This document shows, one piece after another, positions 9,886 through 37,994 of a stretch of DNA of 37,994 nucleotides (position 1 is its first letter; every line of letters starts with the position of its first letter). The position numbers were made by a program, and so were the translations under genes. The DNA comes from Clostridia bacterium (lineage in GTDB: Bacteria; Bacillota; Clostridia; Oscillospirales; CAG-272). The stretch is from positions 1-37,994 of the forward strand of contig JAFUPK010000096.1 of assembly GCA_017481265.1 (NCBI GenBank), given 5' to 3'. The notes beneath the pieces are model-generated. The model had not been told where the DNA came from, did not search any database, and saw nothing but the letters and a program-made list of their open reading frames with translations.

Positions 9886-11541
9886 ATGAAAAAGATTCTC
9901 TCTGTTATTTTAGCATCACTTTTTATCATTTCTACAGCGGTTGCCTGCGGAAATAACAAAGCGAAGGAAAGTGAGTCTGTGACATCGCGCACCGAAGCTT
10001 CTGCCGCGCTGTCGTCAAGCGTAAGCTCGGAAACAGATATTCCTCTCGAAAGTAATTCCGATAGCAGTTCCGAAAGCACTACACAAAGCACGACGATAAG
10101 TGAAACTGAAAGCGAGTCAATCTCTGAATTTACCGAAAGTGTGACCGAGAGCGAAAAAGTCATCACTTATCCTTCTCATCTCGTATCGGTACCTGTCAAA
10201 ATCGATAACCCAAAGGTTACCGAAAAGATTACAGAAAAGGTAACAGAAAAGGCTACAGAGAAAGCGACGGAAAAGGTTACAGAAAAGGTAACGGAAAAGG
10301 CTACAGAGAAAGCGACGGAAAAGGTTACGGAAAAAGCGACGGAAAAAGCGACGGAAAAGGTTACGGAGCAGACTGCACCTAAGCCGATAGTCGTCCCCGT
10401 AGTCAAAAATGATGACACATCACAGCTTCACCCCTTCTACACGAAGCTCACGGAAGCCATGTTCAAAGCTGCAAAGAATGATAACATTGTATTCTCTCCC
10501 GTAAACCTTTACACAGCACTTGCGATCCTTGCGGAAGCGGCAAACGGCGACAGCCGAAGCGAGCTTCTTGAGCTTCTCGGACTCGACAGCACCGAGGAAG
10601 CCGCCGCACTCTCAGCTTCCTTAATAAGATCCCTTACCCGCGACGGAGAACGTTCCATAACACTTCTCGGCTCATCACTGTGGCTAAGCGAAAACTATCC
10701 GTATAAAGGCAAATGTGCAGACCGTATAAGGGACAAGCACTTGGCTGAGCTTTTTGAAGGCGACTTTTCAAGCGGCGAATTCATTCATGAATTAAAAAGC
10801 TGGCTCAGTGAGCAGACAAAAGGACTGCTTGATGACAGTATAAAAGAAATAGACATTGACCCTACAACGATATGCACAGTTATCACAACCCTTTACTTCA
10901 AGGACAAATGGGAAAATTCCTTCAGCAATAGTAAGACCGAACAGCGGACATTCCATGCAGCCGCCGGTGACGTTAAGCACGACTTCATGACGGACACCGA
11001 CATGACAGGACGTTATTATACCGGTGACGGATTCGTTGCAGTTTGCCTTTTCTATGAGGAGGCGGGATACCTCACTCTGGTTCTGCCAAGTATGGGTAAA
11101 AGCGTTGAAAGCCTCCTGCAAAACCCTGATGCGGCAAGCCTTATGATGTACGGCAGACTTGACACAAGTGCCGTTTCCTACAGCGCACAGGTGACAGTAG
11201 CTGTGCCGAAGTTTGACATATCTTATGACGCTGAGCTCTCATCCATTCTATCCGAGCTCGGTGCACCAAGCGTATTTACTCCCGGCAAGGCAGACCTGAC
11301 ATCACTTCTCACATCCATGGACGATCCATACGCAGGCATACAGCACAGCGTAAGACTTCGCATAGACGAAGAAGGAAGTGAAGGTGCCGCGTATTCAGCC
11401 ATCACAATGGCTCCGACAAGCTTGCCGCCTTCCGAGAAAAAAATGGAGATCGTCTTTGACCGTCCATTTGCTTTCTCTCTTCTGTCCCCGAACGGTGAGC
11501 CACTATTCACCGGAATCGTAAACGACCCCACGAAAAACTGA
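9886..11541 (+). CDS. Serpin-family protease inhibitor, lipoprotein
   Basis: A 551-residue protein. It has a lipoprotein signal (MKKILSVILASLFI, then AVAC with Cys near 21), a Ser/Glu-rich stretch, a 13-unit TEK[V/A/I] repeat at about 111-162, then a full serpin domain at about 176-550. Readable serpin features are NIVFSPVNLYTALAILAEAA near the start, TTLYFKDKWENSF in the middle, and near the end the reactive-loop hinge EEGSEGAAYSA (from residue 495) and FDRPFAFSLLSPNGEPLFTG. The hinge keeps Gly and small residues, as in inhibitory serpins, apart from a Tyr at about P9. P1 is near Thr511 but cannot be fixed. Serpins trap serine or cysteine proteases; this one would sit outside the cell on a stalk. 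It closes the ECF sigma operon, so its expression is probably signal-controlled. Confidence 0.93.
   Translation: MKKILSVILASLFIISTAVACGNNKAKESESVTSRTEASAALSSSVSSETDIPLESNSDSSSESTTQSTTISETESESISEFTESVTESEKVITYPSHLVSVPVKIDNPKVTEKITEKVTEKATEKATEKVTEKVTEKATEKATEKVTEKATEKATEKVTEQTAPKPIVVPVVKNDDTSQLHPFYTKLTEAMFKAAKNDNIVFSPVNLYTALAILAEAANGDSRSELLELLGLDSTEEAAALSASLIRSLTRDGERSITLLGSSLWLSENYPYKGKCADRIRDKHLAELFEGDFSSGEFIHELKSWLSEQTKGLLDDSIKEIDIDPTTICTVITTLYFKDKWENSFSNSKTEQRTFHAAAGDVKHDFMTDTDMTGRYYTGDGFVAVCLFYEEAGYLTLVLPSMGKSVESLLQNPDAASLMMYGRLDTSAVSYSAQVTVAVPKFDISYDAELSSILSELGAPSVFTPGKADLTSLLTSMDDPYAGIQHSVRLRIDEEGSEGAAYSAITMAPTSLPPSEKKMEIVFDRPFAFSLLSPNGEPLFTGIVNDPTKN
10216..10371 (+). repeat. 12-bp tandem repeat coding for TEK[V/A/I] units in the serpin stalk
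   Basis: Thirteen in-frame 12-bp units encode VTEK, ITEK or ATEK (the last is VTEQ). The units differ by synonymous changes but keep the pattern, so length change by slippage is likely. The encoded stretch is highly charged and probably an extended or helical stalk lifting the serpin from the membrane. Confidence 0.9.
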
Positions 11542-11570: not shown

Positions 11571-11901
11571 TTGCTAAGGACAGTTATCTTTATTAAAAAC
11601 GGAATTTGGCACACAAATTCCCTGCTTGGGACAGTATAAGACAAAACTACCCGAAGAAGAGAAAACAAACCTCCTTTTCGGGTAGTAATTTTTATATAGT
11701 GATATTCTTTGCTGCGCAAAGAGTGATATGATTGCCGACGGCAATCGTGATATTAAAACCTACGGTTTTAGTGATATTTTATTCGCCTTTTAAAACTCTC
11801 TAAGCGAATAACACTCGGCGTTAGCCGAATATCACTGCGTAGCAATATCACTCGCCGCAAGGCGAATAAAACTGCCCAAGTGTCCTTAGGAACACTTGGG
11901 C
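11571..11901. mobile_element. Non-coding hairpin-array element with 12-bp target-site-like duplication
   Basis: A 331-base block with no coding frame, flanked by the direct repeat AATGTGAGAGGG (11559-11570 and 11902-11913). Its left part has a terminator-like hairpin (CTACCCGAA.../TTCGGGTAG, about 11647-11685). The middle holds short hairpins separated by GTGATAT (11699, 11723, 11747, 11771) on one side and by the inverse ATATCAC (11829, 11845) on the other, so the two halves face each other. The right end is the hairpin GCCCAAGTGT/ACACTTGGGC (11874-11901). No transposase. This fits a small non-autonomous element that inserted into the serpin terminator; the family is not one I can name. Confidence 0.6.
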
Positions 11902-17183: not shown

Positions 17184-19673
17184 TTACGGTGTGAGACAAT
17201 TTTGATATTCAAGATATTTTTTGTACTTCTCAAACATAACGACTTTGATGTACTGCTCCATATACTCATAGTCAGGATTTCCCTCGTCAGTTGTAGGGAG
17301 CATAATCTTCATTGCTTTTAATCTATCTTGACTTATTGAATAGCCATGACTGAAACACTCTCTTTGCTTTGACAAAGCTTGTGACAGATAAAGCATAACA
17401 AAACTGCTAATGGTCGCTTTTGGATAAAGTGCATATACATGAGAATCAAGCAAAAATTCGTACGGTTGATAATAAGCTAAACCAACGCCACCGTCGCCGT
17501 CGTTATTCAATGTTATGCAATTACCTTTATATGTACCCTTTTTGTCGTTGGTTGATGCGTAAAATCCTTTCAGGCCGTTATTGACATTCTTTGCTGAAAT
17601 AAGCATATCGTTCCCGTCTGCAAGAGAATTCATATTATTTTGATTTCCTCGTTTGTAATCAAACAAATCAAGAACTTTGAAAGATTTATATATCTTGTTT
17701 GCAAGCAGACTTGACGATGTTGTAAGTTCAGTGTTGACAAAATCTCTGTATTTTTGTATAAACTTGTACTCGCCGTCCTCCTCAAACAGATATTCTCTTC
17801 CTTGCATAACCATAGAAAACTCAAATGTCAAATAGTCACCTATTGTCTTTTCAAAGTCTGCTTCGGTTGGGATTTCGTCATTGAAATAGTAAAAACTATG
17901 TAACCATTCATCTGTCTCTTCTACAGTTGTGTATACACAAAATTTACTTTCTGCTACCATTTCTTCACGCCATACAGACAACAGGTGTGCTTTCTTGTCT
18001 TTGGCTGACTCTGTTTCGACTAAGCCAATATGCGGCGACACCTTATAACCGTCATTTTCAAAGTTGATAAACTTGCAGATTTTATCTTTTTCGTGAGGTA
18101 TTCCGGCCGTAAATACTGCAATGCACGGAACGGTACCTACTCCGTAAAAAGTATCTTTGCTCAAAGAAATAACACCCTCAAGAGTGTGATGTTTCAAAAT
18201 GTTTTCCTTAACCGCTTGCTCATCTTTACTCTTTCCAGTCATAGCAGACTGAGGAACAATAACAGCACATCTTGCCCCAACAGTTAATGAGTTTAGCAAA
18301 TGCTCTGTGAATGCTATCTCGTACAAATCGGGATTTGCCTTGCTTCCTTGTGAGTATGGTGGGTTCATAAAGCCAACGGTGGCACCCTTTAACTGTAATT
18401 GATTAGGGTTCATCTTCAAAAAGTCGGTGTCTATAAGATTGCTCTTGCCGTCGCCTCTTAAAATCATATTTGTAGTTGCTATCGTAAACATATAGGGTTG
18501 AAGTTCAACGCCATGCAGTTGCTTTTGTCTGATATTTCGCTTTTCGTGGTCAGTTTTTGCTTGTTTTAACATTTTGTGCATGGCAGCAATTAAGAACCCT
18601 GCTGTACCACAACAAGGGTCAAAAACAGTATCCGTCGATTTAATATCTACCAAATCACAGAAAAGTTCTGTTATGTGTTTTGGTGTCAAAACAATGCCAA
18701 GTGTCTGTCCATCGCCGCCTGAATAACTCATAAACTCGCCGTAAAATCTTCCAAGATAATCTTCGGTGCTCTTGCTATAACGAATGGAACGATACATTTT
18801 ATCATATAAAAACTCAGTAAAATGCTTTAACGGTGTTTTTTGTAGTTTGGGCTCAATTTCATTAAGCTTTGCAGTATCTTTTATTAAAGAGAACTGAGAC
18901 AAAAGTTTTTGCTTTTTTACTTCAGGCGCCACATTAGCTCTTTGCAAGTTATCGGATATCGCTCTATAAATTTTATCGCCATCGGTTTTTATATTATCAC
19001 CCGTCAATTCATCAATGGCAAAATTTTTGAACTCAATCTCCCTAAGAGCAAGCAATATGCCAGAAACAATAAGTGGCTTATCCGTATCTTTAAGATTACC
19101 GTAGTTTCTCAAATCTTCGTGCAAAGTTGCTGCGTCTTTTAAAATTTCGGCAGTTTCTTTTTCAGTATCTGTATCTTCCTGTAAAATCTCACGAACAAAA
19201 TACTCGTCTATGTTTTCTTTATTAAACGATATAAAAGACTCTACTTCTGGAAGTTCTCTGTAAAAATCCGTTTCATCTATATACACTGGAGAAATTTTGT
19301 GTTTTTTCTCATCACCCGAAACACCAAGCGCTATGATTTTTTTGTAGCTTGTATGCTCTGCAAGGTGTTTACCGTAAAACAATGCGCCATTAACAGCATA
19401 GTCGGTAACAGCTCCTACTTCCTGACTAATAACTCCACCATTGTCAAGTTTGATATGCTTTGATAAGTCTGCTTTGTCCTCGATAACTAAAAGATAATCT
19501 TTGACAACACCCACATATTCGGGAAAGCCTACTCTTCCTGTGCCTTTTTTGGATGCAGTCTTTAGTGCATAATCAATTTCAAGTATTGTGCTCCCTTGTG
19601 CATCAAGGCTAATATCGGCTTGCTTCAAAAGTTCCCATACCCATAAATCTGTTTTAACTTCTTTTTTAGCCAT
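17184..19673 (-). CDS. Single-chain restriction-modification enzyme (nuclease, N6-adenine methylase, recognition domain)
   Basis: An 829-residue protein. Residues 48-70 (FPEYVG...LLVIEDKAD) fit a PD-(D/E)xK nuclease, with Glu65 and Lys67 as likely catalytic residues. About 290-560 is the methylase: motif I DPCCGTAG (352-359) and motif IV NPPY (437-440), the N6-adenine type used by type I and type IIG enzymes. About 640-829 resembles a type I specificity/BcgI-like recognition domain (LISAKNVNNGLKG, LYLSQALSKQRECFSHGYSISQDRLKAMKIMLP). Cutting, methylation and target choice thus lie on one chain, as in type IIG/BcgI-like systems. It overlaps the preceding small gene by eight bases. Recognition sequence unknown. 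Confidence 0.87.
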   Translation of the reverse strand: MAKKEVKTDLWVWELLKQADISLDAQGSTILEIDYALKTASKKGTGRVGFPEYVGVVKDYLLVIEDKADLSKHIKLDNGGVISQEVGAVTDYAVNGALFYGKHLAEHTSYKKIIALGVSGDEKKHKISPVYIDETDFYRELPEVESFISFNKENIDEYFVREILQEDTDTEKETAEILKDAATLHEDLRNYGNLKDTDKPLIVSGILLALREIEFKNFAIDELTGDNIKTDGDKIYRAISDNLQRANVAPEVKKQKLLSQFSLIKDTAKLNEIEPKLQKTPLKHFTEFLYDKMYRSIRYSKSTEDYLGRFYGEFMSYSGGDGQTLGIVLTPKHITELFCDLVDIKSTDTVFDPCCGTAGFLIAAMHKMLKQAKTDHEKRNIRQKQLHGVELQPYMFTIATTNMILRGDGKSNLIDTDFLKMNPNQLQLKGATVGFMNPPYSQGSKANPDLYEIAFTEHLLNSLTVGARCAVIVPQSAMTGKSKDEQAVKENILKHHTLEGVISLSKDTFYGVGTVPCIAVFTAGIPHEKDKICKFINFENDGYKVSPHIGLVETESAKDKKAHLLSVWREEMVAESKFCVYTTVEETDEWLHSFYYFNDEIPTEADFEKTIGDYLTFEFSMVMQGREYLFEEDGEYKFIQKYRDFVNTELTTSSSLLANKIYKSFKVLDLFDYKRGNQNNMNSLADGNDMLISAKNVNNGLKGFYASTNDKKGTYKGNCITLNNDGDGGVGLAYYQPYEFLLDSHVYALYPKATISSFVMLYLSQALSKQRECFSHGYSISQDRLKAMKIMLPTTDEGNPDYEYMEQYIKVVMFEKYKKYLEYQNCLTP

Positions 19674-36247: not shown

Positions 36248-37096
36248 ATGAAGAAAACAAAAACAGCTCTCGGGCTCGTTGGGGGACTCGGAATTTCAAA
36301 CGAAGAACAGCTCACACTTATAGCAAAAAACGGTTTTGACGGCTATTTTCTTTCCCACGGCGATATTTCAGAGCTTAAGCGTCTGAAAGCTCACGGAGAC
36401 ACCCTCGGACTTGAACTCGGAAGCATCCACGCACCTTTTTTGCGCGTCGACAGGCTGTGGCACTCGCCCGAAAGCGCGGCAGATGCCGAAAATGAGCTTA
36501 TCTCCTGCGTGCACACCTGCGCAGAGCTTGAAGTTCCCATAATGGTGTCCCACGTTTTCATCGGATTTGATCGCCACGAGCCTAATCTTTCGGGAATTTC
36601 AGCTTTTGAGCGGATCGCACGTGAGGCTGCAAAATGCGGTGTGCAGATAGCCTTCGAGAACACCGAAGGAGAAGAATATCTTGAGGCTGTAATAGCTCAT
36701 TTAAGGCGCGCGCCGAACGTGGGCTTCTGCTATGACACGGGACACGCCATCTGCTACAATCCGAACACGGATATGCTGTCACGCTACGGCGACAGACTTA
36801 TCTACACCCACATAAACGATAACCTCGGAGTATCGGACGCGGCCGGAAATATTACTTGGCTCGATGACCTTCACCTGCTGCCCTTTGACGGCGTGTTGGA
36901 TGTGGAGAAATGCATGAGTGGCATTGTAAAAACGGGATTTGAAGGAACGCTGTCATTTGAGCTGTCGGTAAAAAGTAAGCCGGGGCGCAGCGAAAACGAC
37001 CGCTATGCCGAAATGGGCGCAGAAAAGTACATCGCGGAAGCTTTCCTGCGTGCAGACCGCGTACGTGAGATATTCGACCGAGAAAAACAAAAATAA
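36248..37096 (+). CDS. Sugar phosphate isomerase/epimerase family protein (xylose isomerase-like TIM barrel)
   Basis: A 282-residue protein of the AP endonuclease 2/xylose isomerase-like TIM-barrel family. Metal-site candidates follow the barrel order: SIHAPFL (His), VSHVF (His), IAFENTEG (Glu), GFCYDTGHA (Asp, His), YTHINDN (His) and LSFELS (Glu). Family members isomerise or epimerise sugars and inositols, or act as divalent-metal lyases. Cytoplasmic, full length. Start ATG with AAAGGATGG ahead and a perfect promoter upstream. It is divergent from the GH4 gene, which suggests a linked sugar pathway. No clear terminator follows; the tRNA promoter comes within 14 bases. Confidence 0.85.
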   Translation: MKKTKTALGLVGGLGISNEEQLTLIAKNGFDGYFLSHGDISELKRLKAHGDTLGLELGSIHAPFLRVDRLWHSPESAADAENELISCVHTCAELEVPIMVSHVFIGFDRHEPNLSGISAFERIAREAAKCGVQIAFENTEGEEYLEAVIAHLRRAPNVGFCYDTGHAICYNPNTDMLSRYGDRLIYTHINDNLGVSDAAGNITWLDDLHLLPFDGVLDVEKCMSGIVKTGFEGTLSFELSVKSKPGRSENDRYAEMGAEKYIAEAFLRADRVREIFDREKQK

Positions 37097-37109
37097 TTAG
37101 AAATAGGAC

Positions 37110-37138
37110 TTGAAATTTGTCCGCAGCTATGCTATAAT
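37110..37138 (+). promoter_or_regulatory. Promoter of the repeat/tRNA-Leu transcript
   Basis: TTGAAA (37110-37115) and TATAAT (37133-37138) with a 17-base spacer. The RNA would start near 37145 and pass through three tandem repeats before the tRNA, a leader of about 410 bases. Confidence 0.75.
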
Positions 37139-37205
37139 ATCAAAGTCGAATGTAAAGGCAAGAGCCACTTATTCACTATTCACTCTTACTTTTTACTTCA
37201 AATAT

Positions 37206-37555
37206 GCGGATGTGGCGGAAGAGCCGCTTGCGGCGACCTCATAGCGAGCAAAGTGCGAGCTATGTGTGCATACGCGCTGGTTTTGGTTTTTCTTTAAGCT
37301 TCGCAAAACCTAATTTGATATGCTGATGTGGCGGAAGAGCCGTCTTGCGGCGACCTCATAGCGAGCAAAGTGCGAGCTATGTGTGCAGACGCGCTGGTTT
37401 TGGTTTTTCTTTAAGCTTCGCAAAACCTAATTTGATATGCGGATGTGGCGGAAGAGCCGCTTGCGGCGACCTCATAGCGAGCAAAGTGCGAGCTATGTGT
37501 GCATACGCGCTGGTTTTGGTTTTTCTTTAAGCTTCGCAAAACAAAATTTCTATAT
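37206..37555 (+). repeat. Three 117-bp tandem repeats carrying tRNA-Leu 5'-half sequence
   Basis: Units 37206-37321 (116 bases), 37322-37438 (117) and 37439-37555 (117) are nearly identical and run without gap into the tRNA at 37556. Each begins with the first 14-15 bases of that tRNA (GCGGATGTGGCGGAA; unit 2 has GCT) and later has the D-arm piece ACGCGCTGG. Between these, about 50 bases with small hairpins (GCCGC/GCGGC, CATAGC/GCTATG) replace the seven-base D-loop part. The second half of the tRNA is missing and is replaced by a GGTTTT...AAAACC tail. They are not functional tRNAs and not CRISPR. No protein is credible here. Confidence 0.9.
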
Positions 37556-37639
37556 GCGGATGTGGCGGAATTGGCAGACGCGCTGGATTCAGGTTCCAGT
37601 GAAAGCAATTTCATATGGGTTCAAGTCCCTTCATCCGCA
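37556..37639 (+). tRNA. tRNA-Leu (CAG anticodon)
   Basis: An 84-base tRNA. The acceptor arms GCGGATG and CATCCGC are complementary, and the discriminator is A. The D arm has the GG pair in TTGGCAGA. The anticodon stem CTGGA/TCCAG encloses TTCAGGT with anticodon CAG, reading CUG. The long variable arm TGAAA-GCAA-TTTCA marks class II Leu/Ser/Tyr, and TTCAAGT is the T loop. The T stem has one T-T mismatch (ATGGG/CCCTT). CCA is not encoded. Its 5' end is copied in three tandem repeats directly upstream, on the same transcript. Confidence 0.95.
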
Positions 37640-37645
37640 GAAAAC

Positions 37646-37679
37646 AGAAAGCGAGCCTTTGATCAAAGGCTCGCTTTCT
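37646..37679 (+). terminator. Terminator of the tRNA-Leu transcript
   Basis: A perfect 34-base palindrome with 17-base arms starts six bases past the tRNA end. The following T-run is weak; its symmetry allows function on both strands. Confidence 0.75.
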
Positions 37680-37751
37680 ATGTTAAGTTATCACTTGGTA
37701 CACATCCGATGCTTGGAAGCTTTCACTCCATGCTACGGTTTTCAAAGCAGA

Positions 37752-37776
37752 TAAAGCTCCGTCGAAACGGAGTTTT
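37752..37776 (-). terminator. Terminator of the ABC ATPase gene at the window edge
   Basis: CTCCG pairs with CGGAG around TTTCGA (read on the minus strand), about 20 bases past the stop at 37793, with T residues following. The stem is flanked by AAA/TTT. Confidence 0.6.
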
Positions 37777-37792
37777 ACCTGCGGTAATGAAT

Positions 37793-37994
37793 TTATCTTT
37801 TAACACCGCCGAGGGCGTGTATGTACGCGTCCTCAAGAGTGGGTGTTACAGAGGTGGAGTCAAGGAGGCTTCCGTCGGAAACATATCTCACGCGGGCACG
37901 TCCCTCCACGTAAGCTACGGAGGTGACGATGGCGTCCCGTCGAAGCATCTCTTCATCCGCAGGAGTTCCCTCGTGCTCCCAAAGCCTGCCTTCT
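37793..37994 (-). CDS. ABC transporter ATP-binding protein, C-terminal end (partial)
   Basis: Only the last 66 or so codons are in the window; the start lies beyond 37994. The readable end contains LRRDAIVTSVAYVEGRARVRYVSDGSLLDS and finishes TPTLEDAYIHALGGVKR. The PTLEDAYI ending matches the C-terminus of ABC-2-type exporter ATPases (usually PSLEDVFL). The Walker motifs are outside the window, so this rests on the tail only. The partner permease should lie upstream or nearby, outside the window. Confidence 0.65.
   Translation of the reverse strand, partial: EGRLWEHEGTPADEEMLRRDAIVTSVAYVEGRARVRYVSDGSLLDSTSVTPTLEDAYIHALGGVKR

Follow-up and report, generated by a model that had tools for sequence, protein, structure and literature searches.

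The locus examined here raises the question of why an intact tRNA-Leu(CAG) gene is preceded, in phase, by three incomplete copies of its own 5' part. It lies close to the end of the window, that is, the whole analysed stretch of 37,994 nucleotides, contig JAFUPK010000096.1 of a Clostridia bacterium of the order Oscillospirales. The best reading, to which we assign a probability of about one half, is that palindromic DNA was inserted together with a duplication of one end of the tRNA gene, followed by tandem amplification. The array and the tRNA gene comprise the following features:

37206..37321, forward strand, 116 bp: unit 1, with tRNA nucleotides 1-15 (37206-37220), a hairpin insert (37221-37271), the D-arm 3' piece ACGCGCTGG (37272-37280) and an unrelated spacer to 37321
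37322..37438, forward strand, 117 bp: unit 2, with tRNA nucleotides 1-15, one mismatched (37322-37336), a hairpin insert (37337-37384), GCAGACGCGCTGG (37385-37397) and a spacer to 37438
37439..37555, forward strand, 117 bp: unit 3, with tRNA nucleotides 1-15 (37439-37453), a hairpin insert (37454-37504) and ACGCGCTGG (37505-37513), then a spacer
37556..37639, forward strand: intact tRNA-Leu(CAG), acceptor stem GCGGATG/CATCCGC (ARAGORN, 37555-37640; Rfam, RF00005)

The starts of the three units and of the tRNA (37206, 37322, 37439 and 37556) are spaced by 116, 117 and 117 bp, which places the units in phase with the tRNA, and Tandem Repeats Finder reports a period of 117 with 96% matches. The units are 94-97% alike in pairwise comparison and differ by substitutions and small indels; the spacer end of unit 3 is unlike those of units 1 and 2. 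ARAGORN calls a single tRNA gene in the window, the tRNA-Leu(CAG) at 37555-37640, and the Rfam tRNA match at 37556-37639 scores 52.9 bits. In every unit, the tRNA sequence is broken off within the D loop, where a hairpin insert of 48-51 nt is located. The tRNA sequence then resumes, for 9 bases in units 1 and 3 and for 13 in unit 2, with the 3' strand of the D-arm and the start of the anticodon stem, and 41-42 bases with no relation to the tRNA close the unit before the next start. The first 15 nucleotides of the tRNA are reproduced exactly in units 1 and 3, and with one mismatch (GCTG), followed by 12 matching bases, in unit 2. Unit 1 shares a word of up to 15 bases with the tRNA; in 300 mononucleotide shuffles, the longest shared word averaged 6.3 bases and never exceeded 10. 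A preliminary description had proposed this anatomy, namely, units of 116-117 bp in phase with the tRNA that open with its first bases, a D loop replaced by about 50 bases of hairpins, and a piece of unit 2 exactly matching the tRNA that spoke for a tRNA origin; the measurements agree with all these points, and the tRNA origin is further backed by relatives.

The same description had asked whether the unit occurs away from tRNA genes. Within the own assembly, a draft that is 82.5% complete and consists of 171 contigs, it is confined to the array: the 23-nt unit hairpin was found three times with up to 3 mismatches allowed, each time inside the array, and no unit copies were detected outside it, so that we rejected the possibility that the unit is a dispersed repeat. 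A scan of genome contigs for GATGTGGCGGAAGAGCCG yielded 32 stretches, none in a tRNA-Leu context as judged from the flanks, and one unrelated stretch was found in viral contigs; ARAGORN, applied to 6 of the 32 and to the viral one, detected no tRNA.

The gene upstream of the array encodes a TIM-barrel protein and was matched in 9 of the 12 genomes of the genus, the own one included. In two congeners, this gene is followed by units of the same architecture: a single unit and then tRNA-Leu(CAG) in G009, and, in G003, at least two units spaced by 135 bp, the second of which is cut by the contig end. The tRNA-Leu(CAG) of G003 was not found; the contig stops inside the array. The array sizes are thus 1 (G009), at least 2 (G003) and 3 (the window). 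Searches of the congeners with the unit DNA (E up to 10) returned mostly noise, with weak matches to G003 and G009 that pointed to these related arrays. Identity between the window units and their counterparts in G003 and G009 is only 40-53%, so that homology rests on the order of the parts, the shared GCGAG...GAGC hairpin and the neighbourhood; the D-arm piece is common to all three as well. The copies match the local tRNA: the acceptor sequence is GCGGGTA in both the unit and the tRNA of G009, and also in the units of G003, and GCGGATG in the window. Elsewhere in the genus, G002 carries a different one-sided tRNA copy, and no tRNA was present in the stretches read from G001 and G007. As a separate observation, a stretch of 273 bases comprising tRNA-Leu and downstream DNA is 94% identical between G009 and G024 (L082:1103-1375, L104/L178), which belong to two genera, while the leaders differ; a transfer is possible.

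Several sequence features suggest how the array and the tRNA might be expressed:

37110..37138, forward strand: sigma-70-type promoter TTGAAA-17-TATAAT, 11 of 12 consensus matches
37145..37205, forward strand: predicted leader before the array, its start point placed from the promoter
37646..37679, forward strand: 34-bp inverted repeat behind the tRNA, perfect by its 100% match to itself on the opposite strand, and a hairpin in the fold

The promoter announced in the preliminary description is thus in place and near-consensus, and a similar one precedes the arrays of G003 and G009, as judged by eye. A single transcript for the array and the tRNA would fit this lone upstream promoter. The inverted repeat may be a terminator, with short T stretches in its 3' arm and no long T run; it is absent from the output of a terminator scan of 37000-37800. 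That scan detected 4 terminator-like sites, three of them within units, against a shuffle average of 1.2; in each unit, a short hairpin followed by a T-rich stretch attains a terminator-like score.

These features bear on the first alternative, namely, that the array is a functional leader RNA, the tRNA-mimicking units of which act on the expression or maturation of tRNA-Leu as folding competitors, RNase P decoys or weak attenuators. The excess of terminator-like sites in the units is compatible with such a role, and so is the apparently better conservation, judged by eye between G003 and G009, of the core (acceptor mimic, hairpin and D-arm 3' strand) compared to the spacer. The whole transcript folds somewhat better than shuffled sequences (z -2.17, with 4 of 100 shuffles equally good), but the fold of a single unit is at the level of shuffles (z -0.61). 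In an equilibrium model that includes neither RNase P nor folding during transcription, the probability of the tRNA acceptor stem drops from 0.999 without units to 0.714 with three, although not monotonically with the number of units (0.999, 0.845, 0.953 and 0.714 for 0, 1, 2 and 3 units). In the modelled 536-base transcript, the 3' acceptor strand pairs with the tRNA's own 5' strand at 0.71, with unit 1 at 0.28, with unit 2 at 0.0 and with unit 3 at 0.0007. The earlier notion that up to four acceptor strands vie for the single 3' strand thus survives only weakly; overall, the units are predicted to compete modestly for the acceptor stem. Also at odds with a leader function, the copy number varies among congeners, and in six of them (G004, G005, G006, G008, G010 and G011) a tRNA-Leu(CAG) without a partial copy was called, which does not imply that the locus is the same. 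On balance, we consider a functional leader doubtful, even if it is the strongest of the competing explanations.

An Rfam 15 scan of the window at the gathering score recovered only the tRNA and a Gut-1 RNA, leaving the array without a family, and in 21 loci of relatives and the own genome, the tRNA alone exceeded this score. The Gut-1 RNA (RF01706) lies at 11803-11874 on the reverse strand and scores 52.9 bits (gathering score, 50). Also elsewhere in the window, an open reading frame at 9886-11541 with a serpin domain contains a 24-bp/48-bp tandem repeat (10212-10367), and N6 DNA methylase and type I specificity domains share one frame at 17184-19673 on the reverse strand.

A different conserved RNA occupies the tRNA-Leu leader of several relatives (loci L192-L210, e.g. 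L205:1450-1726 and L193:1462-1572). It consists of a GNGG/CCNC-type stem followed by CCTCGG-loop-CCGTGTAAAA, and the loop pairs with the stretch directly after the CCGTGTAAAA hairpin, forming a pseudoknot. The exact motif pattern has 19 matches, sometimes in tandem, in 17 of the 394 genomes of the order, which represent many genera. ARAGORN places a tRNA-Leu 12-270 bases downstream of 16 of these matches; two others are followed by tRNA-Leu 5' sequence according to the pattern, and one (G232) by neither. In a phylum-wide sample, six genomes of the order among them, the motif was detected in 0 of 398, and two viral contigs contain it, one (L212) before tRNA-Leu(CAG) and the other without a tRNA. 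Across 26 motif copies, not all of them independent because some come from the same genome, the best loop pairing averages 5.6 bases compared with 4.3 for shuffled partners (0 of 500 shuffles as high); for the 14 leaders near a tRNA, in which the stem occurs as four different paired types, the values are 6.8 and 4.9 (0 of 2000). A second pseudoknot considered for the motif was discarded, 229 of 2000 permutations being at least as good. In an Rfam scan of the motif-bearing L094, L095 and L106, only the tRNA scored above the gathering score, and a relaxed motif scan of the window gave three matches, none in the array.

Beyond the genus, a wider pattern emerges in the order, of which the array is one case: an intact tRNA is accompanied by a partial copy, either of its 5' part on the upstream side or of its 3' part on the downstream side, and a gene-less, palindrome-rich insert of 80-190 bp mostly lies between the two. 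The breaks fall in or near tRNA loops. We read loci of 46 relatives, in 44 of which ARAGORN called a tRNA-Leu. With the own genome counted, 5' partial copies occur in 10 of 47 (G000, G002, G003, G009, G024, G048, G049, G051, G054 and G058), a rate biased upward because some loci were picked for listed partial matches; in G048, the copies are 833-936 bases upstream and do not adjoin the tRNA. Downstream 3' copies are present in G003, G035 and G030 and at the own tRNA-Leu(TAG), and G015 has an extra full tRNA copy with 79 bp inserted in the D loop after nt 22. A stricter pattern search, independent of the choice of loci, required a 5' copy to lie 109-169 bp ahead of tRNA-Leu. Of 394 order genomes, 18 showed the pattern: 7 with partial copies (G000, G024, G051, G058, G341, G346 and G385), 10 with ordinary pairs of complete tRNA genes, most of them judged by reading the sequence, and 1 unrelated (G095). 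A constant period of about 165 bp, suggested by spacings of 162-168 bp at several loci, is not claimed here because it is partly explained by related inserts and is absent at seven loci (the window, G003, G009, G015, G048, G054 and G341).

In the own genome, we inspected 30 loci out of 32 tRNA matches; they comprise 30 distinct tRNA genes, among which the 5' type is found at Leu(CAG) alone. Copies of the 3' end, 13-19 bases long, lie behind 5 of the 30 genes (Leu(TAG), Ser(GCT), Glu(CTC), Met(CAT) and a Cys-like one); near Val, there is an internal 19-base match, and several of the 3'-type loci appear, by eye, to have an inverted T-arm copy past the terminator. Some individual loci are worth recording. 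In G003, contig C45 (L091:964-1750), 3'-end repeats spaced by 166-168 bp follow tRNA-Leu(TAG), a 3' mirror of the window array. Behind the own tRNA-Met(CAT) (L157, minus strand, approximately 1560-2240), about 650 bp of hairpin-rich repeats, three of which have an AAGGAG...CGACTAT core, extend to a second copy of the 3' end of tRNA-Met. In L197 (1590-1690) and L195, hairpins spaced by about 48 bp that run from tRNA nt 1-9, or a near match, to its complement precede tRNA-Leu, and the difference between the two hairpin units of L197 is a compensated pair.

The most direct evidence of insertion is an empty site within the genus. G002, G004 and G008 have in common the end of the upstream coding region (a gene we take to be nrdR), the promoter and the leader, and at this same locus G002 differs from G004 and G008 by a gain of 162 bp, made up of tRNA nt 1-22 and 140 new bases ahead of the intact tRNA. 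The break occurs at the identical nt 22 in five genomes (G002, G024, G058, G346 and G385). The nt-22 inserts of the latter four, which represent four genera in two families, are 69-81% alike, compared with 18-48% for their flanks and 11-41% for shuffled inserts; the G002 insert is 37-51% similar to the other four. The genes beside these four inserts differ: a NifU-like one in G058, which at 21.7 bits stays below the cut-off of 22; one for a competence protein in G024; PAP2 and PF03601 in G346; and an ECF transporter component in G385. In the viral contig L191, an insert that shares their core separates the intact tRNA-Pro from a copy of its 5' end (nt 1-19). Same-core inserts at tRNA-Leu and tRNA-Pro, each behind a copy of its own tRNA, indicate that the copied end matches the target.

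The core, AAGGAG...CGACTAT within a stem, has nine distinct copies in cellular loci, eight of which have a called tRNA within 500 bp; the remaining one is at a greater distance downstream of tRNA-Met. The sample is biased because the loci searched are tRNA-centred. Among 13 viral stretches with the core pattern, L191 alone is near a called tRNA; nine have no called tRNA nearby and look like coding or ribosome-binding sequence, an appraisal that covers all but L217, L220 and L221. The exact core pattern has 0 matches in the own genome, where variant forms are found beside tRNA-Met and tRNA-Ser, and a relaxed scan for it found none in the array. To inspection without alignment, the window-type insert has no visible resemblance to the nt-22 insert.

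Could the units instead be the decayed remains of ancestral tandem tRNA-Leu genes, the upstream ones having degraded without any insert? The complete tandem pairs in 10 of the 18 matched genomes are a conceivable starting point; the units, however, retain 5' parts only and no 3' half, the empty-site pair differs by one 162-bp gain, and the recurrent break at nt 22 is also at variance with plain decay, which we regard as unlikely. About equally unlikely are remnants of att type, left by a site-specific recombinase acting on small elements that carried the tRNA 5' end and accreted in tandem. Such an origin would account for the position of the breaks, within or close to tRNA loops, which are the crossover sites of many integrases, for the restored intact tRNA and the tandem arrays, and for the duplicated stretch of G002, which begins at nt 1 with just one more upstream base. 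Nevertheless, the inserts leave no room for a gene, and Pfam revealed no recombinase, transposase or integrase domain among 25 window proteins from the longer frames (three of these have no Pfam hit, and the contig ends 355 bases past the tRNA). Furthermore, the upstream DNA identical at both copies is short at some loci (4 bases in the window and G009, 1 in G002 and G024, 3 in G346, 0 in G049 and G341) and longer at others (10 in G385, 12 in G051, 14 in G058 and 15 in L191). With identical runs spanning 0-15 bases, duplication of upstream DNA is not general, and because the duplicated stretch follows the local tRNA, tRNA-Pro included, and reaches upstream variably, it is not one fixed att sequence. 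An assembly artefact at a repetitive locus, for which the draft state of the assembly and the G003 contig ending within an array might speak, is highly improbable given that the flanks are unique, that the same architecture occurs in two other genomes, and that the units differ from one another, which argues against simple assembly duplication.

Taken together, these observations suggest that short hairpin-forming pieces of DNA repeatedly land in tRNA genes, leaving a copy of one end. The course of events that we infer for insertion with one-end duplication is as follows. A short, gene-less, palindrome-rich piece of DNA would enter a tRNA-Leu gene, with the 5' part of the tRNA duplicated alongside, resulting in a damaged 5' fragment and an insert ahead of an intact tRNA; the damaged copy would be tolerated, given the intact tRNA and continued read-through from the promoter. 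The D loop of this non-functional copy would receive a second hairpin insert, and recombination among the direct repeats, slipped or unequal, would then yield the 3 copies seen here, the at least 2 of G003 and the 1 of G009. The array would persist as a transcribed leader, which RNase P should cleave off. The preliminary description had invoked an element that targets D loops and amplifies: the D-loop inserts at nt 22, the empty site and the array sizes of 1, at least 2 and 3 are in line with this, but neither an enzyme nor any movement was seen. Also weighing against our reading are the unlikeness of the window-type and nt-22 inserts, the low similarity of the G002 insert to the other four, the low identity of the window units with those of G003 and G009, and the upstream duplication that only some loci show. 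More speculatively, the order might harbor an undescribed class of tiny, gene-less mobile DNA, moved by an enzyme acting in trans, that enters tRNA loops, copies the outer end of whichever tRNA is hit and builds tandem arrays before or behind it, with some leaders, such as the pseudoknot leader, having become regulatory RNAs and the window representing the 5'-leader form; we would not expect this broader scheme to hold in full.

The lineage repeatedly tolerates breaks in both halves of tRNAs provided that one intact copy is kept, with the leftovers probably sharing a transcript with an essential tRNA. The natural series of 0, 1, 2 or more, and 3 units offers a test of the effect of the leader on tRNA maturation, and the loci provide a route to whatever inserts these pieces.

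How does the array compare with known systems? In a literature search of titles and abstract openings, which does not prove absence, no description of 5'-end tRNA arrays in bacteria was found. Rickettsia palindromic elements, REP and MITE types are short, gene-less, hairpin-forming inserts, the same general make-up as that of the inserts described here; they do not, to our knowledge, duplicate the end of a tRNA. IS and MITEs are recognized by the presence of the same element at several unrelated genome sites, and the window unit is found solely in the array; as for target duplication, it is the tRNA end that is duplicated, with 0-15 extra identical upstream bases depending on the locus (4 here). 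The usual view is that mobile DNA exploits the 3' ends of tRNA genes. Integrative elements targeting tRNAs, which usually take that end and bear genes, keep one intact tRNA with a partial copy on the far side and can accrete in tandem; their attL/attR remnants share with the window array the target and the kept tRNA, but here the 5' end is involved and the inserts have no genes. The closest known relative is the 3'-end repeats of the E. coli K-12 tyrT/tyrV locus (rttR, encoding rtT RNA, and tpr), where each repeat carries one end of the adjacent tRNA, as the tandem units of the window do. In our E. coli control, tyrV is followed by three repeats of the terminal 19 nt of tRNA-Tyr at intervals of 178 bp, and tyrT by one. 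The repeated part in E. coli is the 3' end, located downstream of the tRNA, a form found in G003 and at the own tRNA-Leu(TAG) rather than in the array, in which the 5' end is repeated upstream, with an interrupted D loop and a period of 117 bp. The window array is thus the 5' mirror of the tyrT repeats.
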